A stretch of 64,000 nt of DNA from Synechococcus sp. JA-3-3Ab (GTDB taxonomy: Bacteria; Cyanobacteriota; Cyanobacteriia; Thermostichales; Thermostichaceae). The stretch's first letter is position 1, and each line of letters starts with the position of its first letter. The stretch is from contig NC_007775.1 of assembly GCF_000013205.1 (NCBI RefSeq), forward strand, positions 1,422,501 through 1,486,500. The letters run 5' to 3'. Shown here piece after piece: positions 9,160-57,871 of the stretch. The notes under the pieces are model-generated. The model did no database searches and had not been told where the DNA came from. It saw nothing but the letters and a program-made list of their open reading frames with translations. Made by a program: the position numbers and the translations under genes.

Positions 9160-9335
9160 CCCCTCTCCCTCAGGGAGAGGGGCTGGGGGTGGTCGCGTTA
9201 GCGGCGCGGAGCGCTTGGGCTGGGAGAGGGGCTGGGGGTGAGGGCCGCCGGCGGCGCACAGCGCTTGAGGCTGCCGGAAAGAACCACCCAAAACAAAAAC
9301 CCCTCTCCCCATGGGAGAGGGGCCAGGGGTGAGGG
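9160..9335. repeat. Cluster of GC-rich dispersed repeats
   Basis: Three copies or partial copies of the GGGAGAGGGG/GGGGGTGAGGG family lie at about 9160-9198, 9221-9243 and 9300-9335, between the ferredoxin stop and the third coiled-coil gene. No gene is seen in this gap. The hairpin arms could act as transcription end signals for petF. Confidence 0.65.
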
Positions 9336-17054: not shown

Positions 17055-17235
17055 AGTCCACCGCAACGGTTGCCGGGAAGTGAAGGGGGAAAGCGCTCGG
17101 GGGGTATTCCTCAGGGCTTTGCGGGATACCGCCTTCCTGTTTGGACTCCGTCCCGCTGACGCGAACAGAGATAGGCAGGATGCGATCGCTTCTTTCCTGA
17201 ACCATGTTCAGGAGAGTTCAGCGTGAATGTATCAG
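17055..17235 (+). pseudogene. Remnant of IS607-type tnpB 3' end and right element end
   Basis: Residual codons read RALRDTAFLFGLRPADAN and end DAIASFLNHVQESSA before a TGA, matching the C-terminus of TnpB encoded at 22669 and 56119. GAATGTATCAG at 17225-17235 is the inverted right terminus of the same element. The rest of the transposon is missing, so this is a 5'-truncated relic between lipoprotein genes. It includes a copy of the 24-bp dispersed repeat. Confidence 0.75.
17143..17166 (+). repeat. 24-bp dispersed repeat (copy a)
   Basis: GGACTCCGTCCCGCTGACGC followed by GAAC, inside the tnpB relic where it encodes GLRPADAN. Confidence 0.8.
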
Positions 17236-22307: not shown

Positions 22308-22613
22308 CTGATACATTTACGCTGAACACTGCTGAACATCACTGTTCAACTATGCAGCGATAGCATTCTGTTTGTTTCCATTCGCGTTAGCGGGACGGAG
22401 TCCAAACAGAATGGCGGTATCCCGCAAAGCTTTGAGTAGAATACCCAAAGCGCAGTTTCCGTGTCGTCTTACTACCAATTTTCTGCTTTGCTTTGGCTAC
22501 CATGTTGGCAGACTCGAAAGTAAACAGAAAGATCAACTGGTAGTAATCCGTACTGAGCATATTATACATTATTTTCAGTATAGTTGAGCTTATTATTGAC
22601 TAGAGTCATGCTC
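22308..22613 (-). mobile_element. 306-bp non-autonomous IS607 derivative
   Basis: Both termini match the full element next to it: right end CTGATACATTTACGCTGAAC and left end TGACTAGAGTCATGCTC. Between them is an internally deleted, diverged tnpB whose minus-strand frame still reads LIFLFTFESANMVAKA and later FAGYRHS. tnpA is absent. It could be moved only by TnpA from another copy. It also carries a 24-bp dispersed repeat. Confidence 0.75.
22380..22403 (-). repeat. 24-bp dispersed repeat (copy b)
   Basis: ATTCGCGTTAGCGGGACGGA followed by GTCC, in the same orientation relative to tnpB as copy a. Confidence 0.8.
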
Positions 22614-22668: not shown

Positions 22669-23802
22669 TTACGCTGAACACTGCTGAGCATTACTGCTCA
22701 ACGGTGCAGCGATAGCATTCTGCCCATTACTGAACAGAAAGGCGGTATCCCGCAAAGCCCTGAGCATGACACCCAGGGCGCCTTGCCAGTCCCGTGGTAG
22801 CTTGCGTCCGCATCTTGGGCAGACAAACACCTTCGCGCCACCTAACTTGGTGTGGATGTGCCCGCACTTGGTACAGGTTTTGCTGGTGTACCCTTCCGAT
22901 ACTTCCACGACGACCACGTTTTTCTTCTTGGCTTGAAACTTCAGGAACTGCTTGAACCGATAGTGCGCCCAGGTGAGCATCGCCCTTGCTGTCTTGCTAC
23001 CAAACTTCCTCCCTGCCTTGGCAACCATCTTGGCTGACTCGAAAGTGGGGAGGAATATCAATCGGTAGTTATCCGTTAGGAACGCCGCTACCTTGCGATG
23101 GCACTCGTCCACCAAGTTCCTGATTCTCTCCCGCAGACGAAACGCCGCTTGCCGCATTCGCCTACGCTTGAGTCTCGGCGCTTTACTCAGCCTAGATTGC
23201 AGATCGTCTAGGTGGTAGCACAGCCGAACGATCCTGCCAAAGTCTCCCTTGGCGATATCTACAAAGCCCGCCCCATCAAACCCTGTAAGGAAGCTTCTTA
23301 CTCCAGGATCAAGTGCGATCACCCCCTTTGCTAACGAACACTGCTCGTTCACGGGCTCAGGAAAGATGGCATACCATCTGTCTTTCACCCGCATTAGCTC
23401 AGTTCCACGTGCCCATTCTCTGGGCATCTCCTCGGATGCACGGAACGCCAAACCTCGGGTGAGTTTCGGATACCACGTCCCATTGCGAAAGTTGCCGGCG
23501 TTGAATTGCAGCGTATGCGACCTGTCCCGCACACTGCGAAATCTCGCGTCTTTGCTTCGGCGGAACGCCAACCACGCCTCGACGACCGCGTTCTGCTTGA
23601 TGTGGCAAGGGACGTCCTTCACCCACTCGGGTAGGTCGGAGCGCAGGATGATGTCCCGCAACTTTCTGGCCGTTTTTGGGGCACCATGCTGACGCTGATA
23701 GGCAATCGCTTGGTTGTAGCAGTACCGGCACGCCGCTTGCCACCGCTTCCAAACTTTAGCCAGCGCTGGCTCCGGATAAATCCGTATCTTTCTCGATTGC
23801 AG
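22669..23802 (-). CDS. tnpB: IS607-type TnpB, RNA-guided nuclease
   Basis: About 377 aa from a possible CTG start at 23802. The RuvC-like catalytic residues appear intact: Asp in VIALDPGVRSF, Glu in VVVVEVSEGY and Asp in PRDWQGALG. The zinc ribbon is CTKCGHIHTKLGG...CPRCG. TnpB proteins cleave DNA using an RNA transcribed from the element's right end. No ATG, GTG or TTG lies near the family N-terminus (RKIRIYPEP); the frame stays open through tnpA to an ATG at 24258, so coupling, a rare start or an N-terminal extension must be considered. It overlaps the 3' end of tnpA. Confidence 0.8.
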   Translation of the reverse strand: MQSRKIRIYPEPALAKVWKRWQAACRYCYNQAIAYQRQHGAPKTARKLRDIILRSDLPEWVKDVPCHIKQNAVVEAWLAFRRSKDARFRSVRDRSHTLQFNAGNFRNGTWYPKLTRGLAFRASEEMPREWARGTELMRVKDRWYAIFPEPVNEQCSLAKGVIALDPGVRSFLTGFDGAGFVDIAKGDFGRIVRLCYHLDDLQSRLSKAPRLKRRRMRQAAFRLRERIRNLVDECHRKVAAFLTDNYRLIFLPTFESAKMVAKAGRKFGSKTARAMLTWAHYRFKQFLKFQAKKKNVVVVEVSEGYTSKTCTKCGHIHTKLGGAKVFVCPRCGRKLPRDWQGALGVMLRALRDTAFLFSNGQNAIAAPLSSNAQQCSA

Positions 23803-24349
23803 CCCGGTATTTTCTGAGTCCGTAGAGCCGACTGCTGAAGCAGTGCAGGATGGTGAGGATATCCTCAACCAGTTCCTGCTGGGGAGAGAGGTGATCGTCA
23901 TCGAGAACCAAGATTTCGCACCCGTATTGACGGCAGTACCACTCAACGAACTCAAATCCAAACCGGCAGAGTCGATCCCGGTGAGCGACCACAATTGTTC
24001 CGACATCTCCCGCACGGACTCGTTCCAATAAGGCAAGGAACTTTGGTCTTTTGAAGTCGAGACCGCCGCCAACCTCTCCGACCACTTCGGCTCCAGGATA
24101 GAGGTTAACCAGTCTTGCAATCTGTCTCTCCAAGTCTGACTTTTGCCCTCGACTGCTGACTCGGGCGTACAAAACGACTCGTTTGTCCTTCTTGGGCGCT
24201 CTGATGTAGCTGTCGAGGTCATACCTTCTCGCCCTACCGGATGGTGTACGTGTTGCATGGATCCAGCCCTTCTGTTCCCATCGCCTCAAGGTGTGGAGAC
24301 ATACCCCAAAATAATCCGCCGCTTCTCTCGGTTTTACATATCTAGCCAT
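23756..24349 (-). CDS. tnpA: IS607-type TnpA, MerR-like/serine recombinase
   Basis: A 197-aa transposase. The N-terminus is a MerR-type helix-turn-helix (YVKPREAADYFGVCLHTLRR), then the resolvase domain begins KRVVLYARVSSRGQKSDLE with the nucleophilic Ser in VSS, and continues with IVVAHRDRLCRFGFEFVEW. The length and order are those of IS607 TnpA. Compared with the copy at 57254 it lacks an 8-residue insertion after DLDSYI and is otherwise nearly identical. Confidence 0.9.
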   Translation of the reverse strand: MARYVKPREAADYFGVCLHTLRRWEQKGWIHATRTPSGRARRYDLDSYIRAPKKDKRVVLYARVSSRGQKSDLERQIARLVNLYPGAEVVGEVGGGLDFKRPKFLALLERVRAGDVGTIVVAHRDRLCRFGFEFVEWYCRQYGCEILVLDDDHLSPQQELVEDILTILHCFSSRLYGLRKYRAAIEKDTDLSGASAG

Positions 24350-48392: not shown

Positions 48393-49910
48393 ATGCGTGC
48401 TCCCTCCTCAGGCGACTCGGATCCCACCTTTCCCGAAGCTCAAGCCGGCCAGTCGGCCAAGGACTCCGTCCCGCTTACGCGAACGGAATCGGATCCCAAT
48501 CCAGAGCGGCATTCGGCCCTGAGGCAGCGGCAGCAGTTGGAGGCTCGGCTACTCGAAGCCGAAGCGGAGCTGCAGGAGCGGCGTGCCCTTCAGGAAAAGC
48601 TACAAGCTGAAGTAGAGGCGCTGCACAGTCAACTGGCCGAGAGGGAACTGCAGTCTCGCAAGCAGCAACAGCAGATAGAGCTCTTGCAATTGAAAGCCCA
48701 AACGCCTGCAGACGCTGCTTGGGAAGCCGAATGCCGAGCCCTGCGCCAGAAGGTGGCCGAGCAAGAAAAGGCGCTGCAGGAGCGGGAACATGCCCTGCGC
48801 CAGTTGCAACAGACTTTGGCAGAGCAAAAAGTTCAGCTCTCGGAGCAGGAAGCTCAGCTGGCGGCGCGGCAACGCCTCAACGAGCGGCAGCGCCAAGATA
48901 TCGAAGCCCTACAGGAGCAGATCGAGCAGCTACGGCTGGCCCATGCTCAGGAGCGCCGTCAGTGGGAACACCGTCAGCAGGAGCTACAGGCTTCTCTGGT
49001 GGAAGCTCAAGACCTGGCGGAAAAACGGGTGGAGATGTTGCAGCGTTTCAAGGCAGAGCTTTCGTTGGCCCGCACCCAAATTGCAGAAACTCAGGCGGAG
49101 CTGAACAGCCTGCGGGCTCTGTACAACGACCAACGGGCAGCCTGGCAAGAACAGCGGGAACATCTCGAGGCGCGTCTGGCGGGCTATGCCGAGACAGAGG
49201 CGGAAGCGGAGCAGCGCTGGCAGGAACAACGGCAGGAATTGGAAGCGGCGCTGGCCGATGCCCAGGCGCAACTGGCCGCTTTGCAAGCTCAGCAAGAGCA
49301 ATGGCGTCAGGACTCCCGGGAGCAGCAACAGCAGTGGCAAGCCCAGGTCGAAGCGCTGCAAGCTGCCCTCGCCCAAGCGCAGGCGGAAATTGCCCATTGG
49401 CAGCAGGAGCACCGCCGTCTGGAGGAACGGTACGCCCAGGCCCAGCAGCGCCTCGGCGATCTGGAGCAGCGGCTCCAAGCAGCTCTGGCCCAGCTTGCCG
49501 ACCAACCCACCTGGCAATCGCAATTGCGCTCTGCCCAGATCGCCGTCACCCATCTGCAGGAGCAAACAGAGGCCTTGGAGGGGCAGGTGAGGGCCCTGCA
49601 GGCGGAACGCGCCGCCCTCGCCGAAGAAAACCGCTCCCTGAGAGAGAAGTACGAGCAGCAGCAGATGCACCTGCTCAGCCTGAAGACGGCTTTGGAGCGC
49701 AAGGGAATAGACATCCCGCCTCGCGCTGGTGCAGCGGCTCCCAATGCTGCCGACACGCCAACACGGTCTGAGTCTCTCGCTTCGCTCCAGGCCGCCAAGC
49801 CCAAGTCTGCCCTATGGACTCCGTCCCGCTTACGCGAACAGTCCCGGCCTTTGCTGGCTCGCCCTGATAAGCGGGCAGTGGATCTGCCGCGGTTCTTGCC
49901 CCGACCGTGA
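48393..49910 (+). CDS. Long coiled-coil protein upstream of priA
   Basis: A 505-aa hydrophilic protein. Residues about 45-435 are an almost unbroken Gln/Glu/Arg/Leu-rich coiled coil. The C-terminus has LLSLKTALERKGIDIPPRAG, resembling the end of cyanobacterial proteins annotated Npun_F5560 family (from memory, moderate confidence). Two 24-bp dispersed repeats lie in the frame and encode KDSVPLTRTE (near residue 25) and WTPSRLRE (near residue 477), outside the coiled coil. The stop overlaps the GTG of priA (GTGA). Confidence 0.75.
   Translation: MRAPSSGDSDPTFPEAQAGQSAKDSVPLTRTESDPNPERHSALRQRQQLEARLLEAEAELQERRALQEKLQAEVEALHSQLAERELQSRKQQQQIELLQLKAQTPADAAWEAECRALRQKVAEQEKALQEREHALRQLQQTLAEQKVQLSEQEAQLAARQRLNERQRQDIEALQEQIEQLRLAHAQERRQWEHRQQELQASLVEAQDLAEKRVEMLQRFKAELSLARTQIAETQAELNSLRALYNDQRAAWQEQREHLEARLAGYAETEAEAEQRWQEQRQELEAALADAQAQLAALQAQQEQWRQDSREQQQQWQAQVEALQAALAQAQAEIAHWQQEHRRLEERYAQAQQRLGDLEQRLQAALAQLADQPTWQSQLRSAQIAVTHLQEQTEALEGQVRALQAERAALAEENRSLREKYEQQQMHLLSLKTALERKGIDIPPRAGAAAPNAADTPTRSESLASLQAAKPKSALWTPSRLREQSRPLLARPDKRAVDLPRFLPRP
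48461..48484 (+). repeat. 24-bp dispersed repeat (copy c), in coding sequence
   Basis: GGACTCCGTCCCGCTTACGC followed by GAAC, within codons 23-31 of the coiled-coil gene. Confidence 0.8.
49816..49839 (+). repeat. 24-bp dispersed repeat (copy d), in coding sequence
   Basis: Identical to copy c over the 24 bases but read in another frame, giving TPSRLRE. Confidence 0.8.
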
Positions 49911-56118: not shown

Positions 56119-57300
56119 TTACGCTGAACACTGCTGAGCATTACTGCTCAGCGGTGAAGCGATAGCATTCTGTCCGTTTCCGTTGTCACTACGCGACGCT
56201 GACGCGACCGCGCTACTCGGACGGAGTCCAAACAGAAAGGCGGTATCCCGCAAAGCCCTGAGCATAACACCCAGAGCGCCTTGCCAATCTCGTGGTAGCC
56301 TATGGTTGCACTTTGGGCATCTAAACACCTTTGCGCCACCCAACTTGGTGTGGATGTGCCCGCACTTGGTACAGGTTTTGCTGGTGTACGCTTCCGATAC
56401 TTCCACGACAACCACGTTTTTCTTCTTGGCTTGAAACTTCAGGAACTGCTTGAACCGATAGTGCGCCCAGGTGAGCATCGCCCTTGCTGTCTTGCTACCA
56501 AACTTCCTCCCTGCCTTGGCAACCATCTTGGCTGACTCGAAAGTGGGGAGGAATATCAATCGGTAGTTATCCGTTAGGAACGCCGCTACCTTGCGATGGC
56601 ACTCGTCCACCAAGTTCCTGATTCTCTCCCGCAGACGAAACGCCGCTTGCCGCATTCGCCTACGCTTGGGTCTCGGTGCTTTACTCAGCCTAGATTGCAG
56701 ATCGTCTAGGTGGTAGCACAGCCGAACGATCCTGCCAAAGTCTCCCTTGGCGATATCTACAAAGCCCGCCCCATCAAACCCTGTAAGGAAGCTTCTTACT
56801 CCAGGGTCAAGCGCAACAACCCCCTTTGCTAACGAACACTGCTCGTTCACGGGCTCAGGAAAGATAGCATACCATCTGTCTTTCACCCGCATTAGCTCAG
56901 TTCCACGTGCCCATTCTCTGGGCATCTCCTCGGATGCACGGAACGCCAAACCTCGGGTGAGTTTCGGATACCACGTCCCATTGCGAAAGTTGCCGGCGTT
57001 GAATTGCAGCGTATGCGACCTGTCCCGCACACTGCGAAACCTCGCGTCTTTGCTTCGGCGGAACGCCAACCACGCCTCGACGACCGCGTTCTGCTTGATG
57101 TGGCAGGGGGCGTCCTTCACCCACCCGGGCAGGTCGGAGCGCAGGATGATGTCCCGCAGCTTTCTGGCCGTTTTTGGGGCACCATGCTGACGCTGATAGG
57201 CAATCGCTTGGTTGTAGCAGTACCGGCACGCCGCTTGCCACCGCTTCCAAACTTTAGCCAGCGCTGGCTCCGGATAAATCCGTATCTTTCTCGATTGCAG
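56119..57300 (-). CDS. tnpB: IS607-type TnpB, RNA-guided nuclease
   Basis: About 393 aa from a possible CTG start at 57300. The catalytic motifs are as in copy 1: Asp in VVALDPGVRSF, Glu in VVVVEVSEAY, Asp in PRDWQGALG, and zinc ribbon CTKCGH...CPKCN. A 16-residue insertion GLRPSSAVASASRSDN lies after DTAFLF. There is no canonical start near the family N-terminus. It overlaps tnpA by 47 bp. Confidence 0.8.
   Translation of the reverse strand: MQSRKIRIYPEPALAKVWKRWQAACRYCYNQAIAYQRQHGAPKTARKLRDIILRSDLPGWVKDAPCHIKQNAVVEAWLAFRRSKDARFRSVRDRSHTLQFNAGNFRNGTWYPKLTRGLAFRASEEMPREWARGTELMRVKDRWYAIFPEPVNEQCSLAKGVVALDPGVRSFLTGFDGAGFVDIAKGDFGRIVRLCYHLDDLQSRLSKAPRPKRRRMRQAAFRLRERIRNLVDECHRKVAAFLTDNYRLIFLPTFESAKMVAKAGRKFGSKTARAMLTWAHYRFKQFLKFQAKKKNVVVVEVSEAYTSKTCTKCGHIHTKLGGAKVFRCPKCNHRLPRDWQGALGVMLRALRDTAFLFGLRPSSAVASASRSDNGNGQNAIASPLSSNAQQCSA
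56190..56228 (-). repeat. Dispersed-repeat-related insertion in tnpB (copy f, diverged)
   Basis: GGACTCCGTCCGAGTAGCGC in minus-strand sense shares the GGACTCCGTCC core with the 24-bp repeat and adds a GCGTCAGCGTCGCGT-like duplication. Copy 1 of the element lacks it. Confidence 0.6.
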
Positions 57301-57871
57301 CCCGGTATTTTCTGAGTCCGTAGAGCCGACTGCTGAAGCAGTGCAGGATGGTGAGGATATCCTCAACCAGTTCCTGCTGGGGAGAAAGGTGATCGTCATC
57401 GAGAACCAAGATTTCGCACCCGTATTGACGGCAGTACCACTCAACGAACTCAAATCCAAACCGGCAGAGTCGATCCCTGTGAGCGACCACAATTGTTCCG
57501 ACATCTCCCGCACGAACTCGTTCCAATAAGGCAAGGAACTTTGGTCTTTTGAAGTCGAGACCGCCGCCAATCTCTCCGACCACCTCGGCTCTAGGATAGA
57601 GGTCAACCAGTCTTGCAATCTGTCTCTCCAAGTCTGGTTTCTGCCCTCGACTGCTGACTCGGGCGTACAAAACGACTCGTTTGTCCTTCTTGGGTGCTCT
57701 GTTCGCGTCAGCGGGCCGGAGGCCAATGTAGCTGTCGAGGTCATACCTTCTCGCCCTACCGGATGGTGTACGTACTGCATGGATCCAGCCCTTCTGTTCC
57801 CATCGCCTCAAAGTGTGGAGACACACCCCAAAATAATCCGCCGCTTCTCTCGGTTTTACATATCTAGCCAT
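57254..57871 (-). CDS. tnpA: IS607-type TnpA, MerR-like/serine recombinase
   Basis: A 205-aa serine recombinase almost identical to the one at 23756, with the 8-residue insertion GLRPADAN after DLDSYI, between the helix-turn-helix and the catalytic domain. The nucleophilic Ser of YARVSSRGQ is retained and the insertion is in a linker, so activity is probably kept (inference). Confidence 0.9.
   Translation of the reverse strand: MARYVKPREAADYFGVCLHTLRRWEQKGWIHAVRTPSGRARRYDLDSYIGLRPADANRAPKKDKRVVLYARVSSRGQKPDLERQIARLVDLYPRAEVVGEIGGGLDFKRPKFLALLERVRAGDVGTIVVAHRDRLCRFGFEFVEWYCRQYGCEILVLDDDHLSPQQELVEDILTILHCFSSRLYGLRKYRAAIEKDTDLSGASAG
57701..57724 (-). repeat. 24-bp dispersed repeat (copy e), precise insertion in tnpA
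   Basis: A variant of the repeat (core GGCCTCCGGCCCGCTGACGC then GAAC) that is absent from the otherwise identical copy 1 sequence, so insertion boundaries can be read directly. Confidence 0.75.

Follow-up and report, generated by a model that had tools for sequence, protein, structure and literature searches.

A 24-nt dispersed repeat of Synechococcus sp. JA-3-3Ab and its relatives: precise insertion, a covarying stem and a probable mobile nature

Two identical 24-mers inside one coiled-coil gene of Synechococcus sp. JA-3-3Ab belong to a large dispersed family that is almost confined to one genus. The 24-nt unit is gained precisely, with its target kept and without a long target duplication; insertions occur in both orientations and affect genes, intergenic DNA and other transposons alike. 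It is quite probably mobile and non-coding, one of the small dispersed repeats (SDRs). Our fuller reading, to which we give a probability of roughly 0.35, is that this element would spread as a two-hairpin single strand without reverse transcriptase (RT), leave its target alive, and act as a natural mutagen whose 8-residue additions may be accepted by a still-multiplying transposase as well as by proteins of the cell.

The window, by which we mean the whole stretch of 64,000 nt analyzed here, lies in a 2,932,766-bp genome. As claimed in an earlier note on this DNA, the 24-mer GGACTCCGTCCCGCTTACGCGAAC is present at 48461-48484 and again at 49816-49839 within a protein-coding gene, and the two copies (24/24 identical) are read in different frames (codon phases 0 and 2), covering residues ~23-30 and ~476-482 of the 505-aa ORF. 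It is also correct that both lie outside the long Q/E-rich coil of the protein. The exact match between them is 24 nt with no extension to the left, and the longest repeat in 200 first-order Markov simulations of the CDS was 17 nt. Exact GGACTCCGTCCCGCTTACGCGAAC has only these two places in its own genome, both within ORF 48393-49910. A domain search of the 505-aa protein returned only a sub-threshold hit to TPR_MLP1_2 (22.4 bits vs. a cut-off of 36), a plasmid search with the gene gave zero matches, and Rfam found two tRNAs and nothing else in the 64-kb window. The coordinates of the gene and of the other features are listed in the table.

Table. Copies of the unit and the genes related to them in the 64-kb window
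Feature	Position	Strand	Remarks
Host gene, 505-aa Q/E-rich coiled-coil-like protein	48393..49910	+	PriA-like helicase gene directly downstream
Unit copy 1: AA + 22-nt core GGACTCCGTCCCGCTTACGCGA, then A and CGG (target CRG)	48459..48482	+	adds KDSVPLTR
Unit copy 2: T + 22-nt core + A, then CAG	49815..49838	+	encodes TPSRLRE
Unit core in IS-end relic, same surrounding motif (CTGTTT...)	17143..17164	+	1 mismatch to GGACTCCGTCCCGCTTACGCGAAC
Unit core within ~306-bp mobile element	22382..22403 (24-mer match 22380)	-	2 mismatches; empty element copies in genome
Core, GGCC-TCC-GGCC variant, in presumed IS607-type tnpA	57703..57724 (24-mer match 57701)	-	3 mismatches; adds GLRPADAN
Diverged unit, GGAC-TCC-GTCC + GAGTAGCGCGG second half, in tnpB ORF	56208..56229 (match 56206)	-	7 mismatches, first hairpin exact
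TCAC-TAC-GCGA variant	56186..56207	+	adjoins the 56208..56229 unit, opposite orientation
GCGC-TCC-GCGC variant (compensated stem)	9193..9214	-	beside GGGGCTGGGGGTGAGGG repeat
Presumed IS607-type TnpA, 205 aa, with 8-aa insertion	57254..57871	-	MerR + Resolvase domains
Presumed IS607-type TnpA, 197 aa, without insertion (natural empty site)	23756..24349	-	MerR + Resolvase domains

The gene was aligned with its orthologues in G003, G005, G002, G004, G001 and G006 (the sequence of L031 is the same as that of G001), and this comparison shows both window copies to be insertions. Copy 1 is shared with G003, whose orthologue is the closest at 80% aa identity, and has GG there as its variable dinucleotide NN, against TA in the own genome; it is missing in G004, G005, G002, G001 and G006, and the G004 gene is shorter by exactly 24 nt at this site. 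Copy 2 is confined to the own genome and absent from all six orthologues; compared with G003, the locus is 18 nt longer on balance, with 24 nt added and 6 nt missing directly downstream. Copy 1 would have inserted into the coiled-coil gene when G003 had not yet diverged, and copy 2 later. An alignment of orthologues had been proposed in the earlier note as the check on the two peptides, and neither of them is present in distant orthologues, copy 1 being found only in G003.

Within its own genome, the 24-mer with up to 3 mismatches occurs at 69 places, compared to 0 for a reversed-pattern control; on this count and the simulated maximum of 17 nt, a chance repeat or low-complexity coil DNA was rejected. 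Many copies in this genome are borne by transposons: the ~306-bp element carries 12, and the GGCC and GGACTACG variants account for 11 and 7, respectively. The core pattern GGACTCCGTCCCGCTNNCGCG, with at most one mismatch, was detected at 61, 18, 50, 175, 208 and 40 places in the six genomes of the genus (G000 to G005, respectively). Outside the genus, it was found at 3 places in G007, 2 in G023 and none in the remaining 31 (39 genomes searched). A covariance model gave at least 20-52 matches per genome within the genus (six genomes) and at least 1-4 in 12 others among 145 genomes searched, all of these counts being lower bounds obtained from the 150 or 51 candidates scored per genome. The exact core pattern had 0 matches in viral_contigs, and a virus-borne origin was rejected on this result. 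To arrive at the six or more copies that the earlier note gives for the 64-kb stretch, one has to include the diverged copy at 56206 (7 mismatches, tnpB).

The unit consists of AA followed by a 22-nt core, NNNC-TNC-GNNN-CGC-TNNC-GCG-A, in which a variable stem is followed by a constant CGC-TNNC-GCG hairpin. When the anchor CGCTNNCGCGA alone was searched in 346,520 bases, 90 of the 112 instances (transposon-borne copies included) were preceded by a stem paired at 4 of 4 positions with a 3-nt loop, a structure found in 0.5% of random 11-mers. In 28 of these 90 paired stems, the sequence is not GGAC/GTCC; the left arms are GTGC, GGCC, GCGC, TCGC, TTGC, GAAC, AGAC, ATGC and GGGC, each with a matching complement. 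An alignment of 94 rows (all 59 non-GGAC units and 35 of the 101 GGAC units) contained both-sided changes in 99 cells, compared to a mean of 28 after shuffling and no more than 14 for slid structures; these rows were preselected for at least 3/4 stem pairs, with 16 of 212 contexts dropped, and the CGCTNNCGCGA-anchored test is the fairer one. As the first stem keeps its pairing through changes of sequence, the unit acts as a folded single strand. The second hairpin is near-constant, with CAC-TGGC-GTG as its single both-sided change, and an alternative second half, GAGTAGCGCGA, recurs at several sites. The loops read T-N-C and T-NN-C on the plus strand, and C-GNA-G and C-GNNA-G on the minus strand. 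The latter two are unusually stable DNA loop types; with standard DNA parameters, the predicted hairpins are weak at 60 C, a point against our best explanation. A second class of units, composed of GGACTCCGTCC followed by a GAGTAGCGCGA-like half and not by CGCTNNCGCGA, was observed in the window (56208-56229) and in L081, L092, L101, L121 and L217, and would fold differently. We also observed a repeat around GGGAGAGGGGCTGGGGGTGAGGGC at ~9190 and elsewhere, 20-mers of which have up to four copies in the window, one of them beside the GCGC variant.

Insertion usually takes place before (W)CRG, and the target is left intact. Over 150 independent non-tandem sites, the frequencies to the left of the unit are 0.01 for G at -3, 0.88 for A/T at -2 and 0.79 for A at -1, and those to the right are 0.79 for A/T at +1, 0.78 for C at +2, 0.94 for G/A at +3 and 0.75 for G at +4. 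The right flanks of the window copies, ACGG and ACAG, both match this target. Compared with empty alleles, the gained 24 nt take one of two forms: AA-core ahead of X-CRG, or W-core-W ahead of CRG. Base X is at times replaced at filled sites (T to A at L072:7557 and at the neighboring G003 insertion), which also counts against our best explanation. The octamer HIP1 (GCGATCGC) was considered as a target and rejected, since the target is (W)CRG and HIP1 occurs only 3 times in the 64-kb window, a low number for a cyanobacterium. With CRG surviving the insertion, the site stays open to a further unit. Indeed, 22 distinct tandem pairs were found, mostly with AA at the joint, and such head-to-tail stacking leads to allele differences of 24 or 48 nt. 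An array of five head-to-tail units with one and the same NN is present at G004:C1:2594309-2594425 (L084), a natural 24-nt tandem array.

Filled sites were compared with orthologous alleles after searching relatives with multi-copy stretches of G000 and G004. In 61 such comparisons covering 35 sites, the alleles differed by 24 nt in 29 cases and by 48 nt in 10 (two-unit sites); the others differed by 0 (11 cases), by -48 (one case, with three units in G003 against one in the own genome) or by other lengths (10 cases). An empty allele shorter by an exact multiple of 24 nt was found in at least one relative for 16 of the 35 sites, 11 of the 35 having no orthologue that passed the 60% flank filter (window copy 2 is among these and was judged by eye). 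In this way, CAGC^TCGGCC corresponds to CAGC-AAGGACTCCGTCCCGCTAACGCGA-TCGGCC at a filled site, and GGTT^TCGGCG and CCCT^TCGGGG are interrupted likewise. Filled and empty copies of the ~306-bp element (12 and about 10, respectively) coexist in the own genome, and in an alignment of 2 filled and 6 empty ones they are exactly 24 nt apart at CTGTT^TGG. At L072:12898-12919 (G000), TCGC-TAC-GCGA in G000 and G004 stands opposite a GGAC-TCC-GTCC of the same length in G003; this difference could represent either in-place replacement or independent insertion at the same target.

With respect to coding sequence, 42 of 158 sites with full flanks were confidently coding vs. 48.3% of 4,000 control WCRG positions (odds ratio 0.39, p = 6e-8), where coding calls rely on a heuristic codon-usage score with a single frame across the insertion and the control loci are partly different from the site loci. 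A stricter first threshold called 21 of 165 sites coding, and the relaxed one 43 of 165. In-gene insertions appear to be purged. The unit contains no stop codon in most of its frames, and among the 43 coding sites flanked by 150 nt or more, 42 carry a stop-free insert; as 24 nt preserve the frame, the protein gains 8 amino acids. An antisense frame encoding ~xRVSGTESx was used at 24 of 42 sites vs. 23% expected (p = 2e-6) and was favored under both thresholds; selection for a loop-like peptide might lie behind this preference. The window peptides KDSVPLTR and TPSRLRE are read in other, less common frames. The idea that the repeat is a source of short peptides is borne out by the orthologues and by the TnpA pair described below, with the qualification that these peptides look like a tolerated by-product of an element moving everywhere, since the share of confidently coding sites (42 of 158) is lower than that of the control motifs (48%).

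The window contains a further filled/empty pair in two TnpA genes, which we take to be of IS607 type from their combination of MerR and Resolvase domains. Their DNA is 97.5% identical with a single 24-nt gap, and the proteins read SYI-GLRPADAN-RAPKKDK and SYI-RAPKKDK, the additional 8 aa being located in the linker between the MerR and resolvase parts. The GGCC-variant 24-mer in this tnpA occurs at 11 places in the own genome, and three further copies show the same flanks; therefore, the transposon carrying it has very probably multiplied after the insertion. Such later multiplication suggests that the lengthened 205-aa TnpA works. These near-identical genes with and without a linker insertion represent a natural insertion-tolerance experiment.

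How the unit moves is less certain than that it moves. We tentatively favor a single-stranded-DNA route, at somewhat less than even odds, in which a candidate host or IS enzyme would copy the unit in trans; the copied form would be two-hairpin single-stranded DNA and not a reverse transcript, and would often derive from a nearby copy and be pasted 5' of CRG (3' of CYG on the other strand). The covarying stem fits an RNA intermediate with reverse transcription equally well. Nevertheless, the RT domain PF00078 (RVT_1) was found 0 times in the six genus genomes G000 to G005, while the same search was positive in G007, G008 and G023. A cDNA route is therefore improbable, and RT-based spread was rejected for this genus, although the absence of PF00078 would be compatible with a past RT or an unrelated polymerase. 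Transposition of the IS200/IS605 or REP/RAYT type, with a Y1 transposase cleaving beside the hairpins and placing the unit on the 3' side of a short target, would account for a short hairpin unit and for a target kept on one side without duplication, and the Y1 domain (PF01797) is present in six of the six genus genomes. Yet its numbers (19, 4, 3, 4, 2 and 9 in G000 to G005) do not track the element numbers, the consensus contains no GTAG/CGTC-type tag, and the target is unlike those of IS200/IS605. Moreover, orientations are mixed, and no replichore bias was detected for 108 G004 sites among the matches listed (split score 22, shuffles mean 24); as single-strand transposition on the lagging strand predicts such a bias, this result also counts against the single-stranded-DNA route that we favor. 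We consider the Y1 route unlikely.

Template switching or gene conversion, in which a replication fork or repair patch switches to a copy close by and then returns, so that the unit spreads mainly locally and with no dedicated enzyme, has a slightly better chance than the Y1 route, yet it is still rather unlikely. It would explain why G004 neighbors less than 2 kb apart share NN in 21 of 53 pairs (shuffled mean 9.7; 0.0008), why exact GGACTCCGTCCCGCTTACGCGAAC with its rarer NN of TA is limited to two places, both of them in one gene, why NN is the same in 18 of 22 tandem pairs, and why some flanking bases are altered. Free switching, however, is not expected to yield exact multiples of 24 nt at unrelated sites or a sharp target consensus; seven of the 22 tandem neighbors are unlike each other (four of them in NN), and local sharing of NN is not significant in G000. 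Dense clusters of units were observed in the 3,046,682-bp genome of G004 (G004:C1 1581751-1587193, 610447-628567 and 320272-325285), in which neighbors share NN and mostly orientation, suggesting local spread. Finally, a non-mobile functional motif, such as a binding site or an mRNA hairpin under selection and lost here and there, could be argued from the 11 of 61 comparisons in which the orthologue has the unit too, but it is hardly credible in view of exact 24n presence/absence at 16 sites, including conserved proteins and near-identical transposon copies, and of window-gene outgroups that all lack the unit.

Among known systems, the small dispersed repeats SDR1-8 of Nostoc, reportedly described by Elhai et al. 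in 2008, come close. An RNA intermediate with reverse transcription is the route proposed for them, and SDR4-6 share a common secondary structure backed by compensatory changes. The 24-nt unit resembles SDRs in being 20-30 nt long and dispersed, with a compensated fold, precise insertion with empty alleles and recent mobility, and in entering other repeats and mini-transposons. It differs from them in its apparently different sequence, its near-restriction to one genus, its head-to-tail arrays and its host genomes without an RT domain. SDR5 inserts within HIP1 (PMC4390886), whereas the unit targets (W)CRG and not this octamer. REP/REPIN sequences are described as mostly extragenic, carrying GTAG or CGTC tags and replicating as inverted pairs (PMC3116915, PMC6006769, PMC3733652). 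Like REP/REPIN with RAYT, which are proposed to move single-stranded, the unit is a short, many-copy hairpin repeat; unlike them, it carries no GTAG/CGTC tag, forms direct tandems and enters genes (42/158 confidently coding). Derivatives of IS200/IS605 likewise keep the target on one side without duplication, but the orientation of the unit shows no replication-direction bias (108 listed G004 sites). Retroelements such as group II introns, retrons and DGRs are set apart by PF00078, which is found in 0/6 genus genomes.

Rickettsia palindromic elements (~100-150 bp) insert in protein genes. The unit resembles them in its in-frame insertion into such genes with the extra peptide tolerated, and differs in its 24-nt length, adding 8 residues. 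Nelson et al. (2012) are said to have described ISSoc miniature elements of thermophilic Synechococcus as deletion derivatives of IS. The ~306-bp element carrying the unit is presumably of this kind, a putative assignment; the 24-nt unit is separate, smaller and inserted into only some of the ~306-bp copies. ISSoc miniature elements are also mentioned in PMC10969869. A literature search, with the SDR and ISSoc source papers outside its reach, found no description of the 24-mer, and an earlier one is possible.

At 24 nt, the unit would rank among the smallest mobile elements of DNA. To our knowledge, the mechanism by which such tiny repeats move has not been settled. This mechanism is directly testable here, as the family combines many filled and empty alleles and a defined target with a stem that covaries and a host genus in which no RT domain was found. 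The family also shows a route by which proteins gain 8 residues in frame; among them is a transposase that exists in many copies in its lengthened form.
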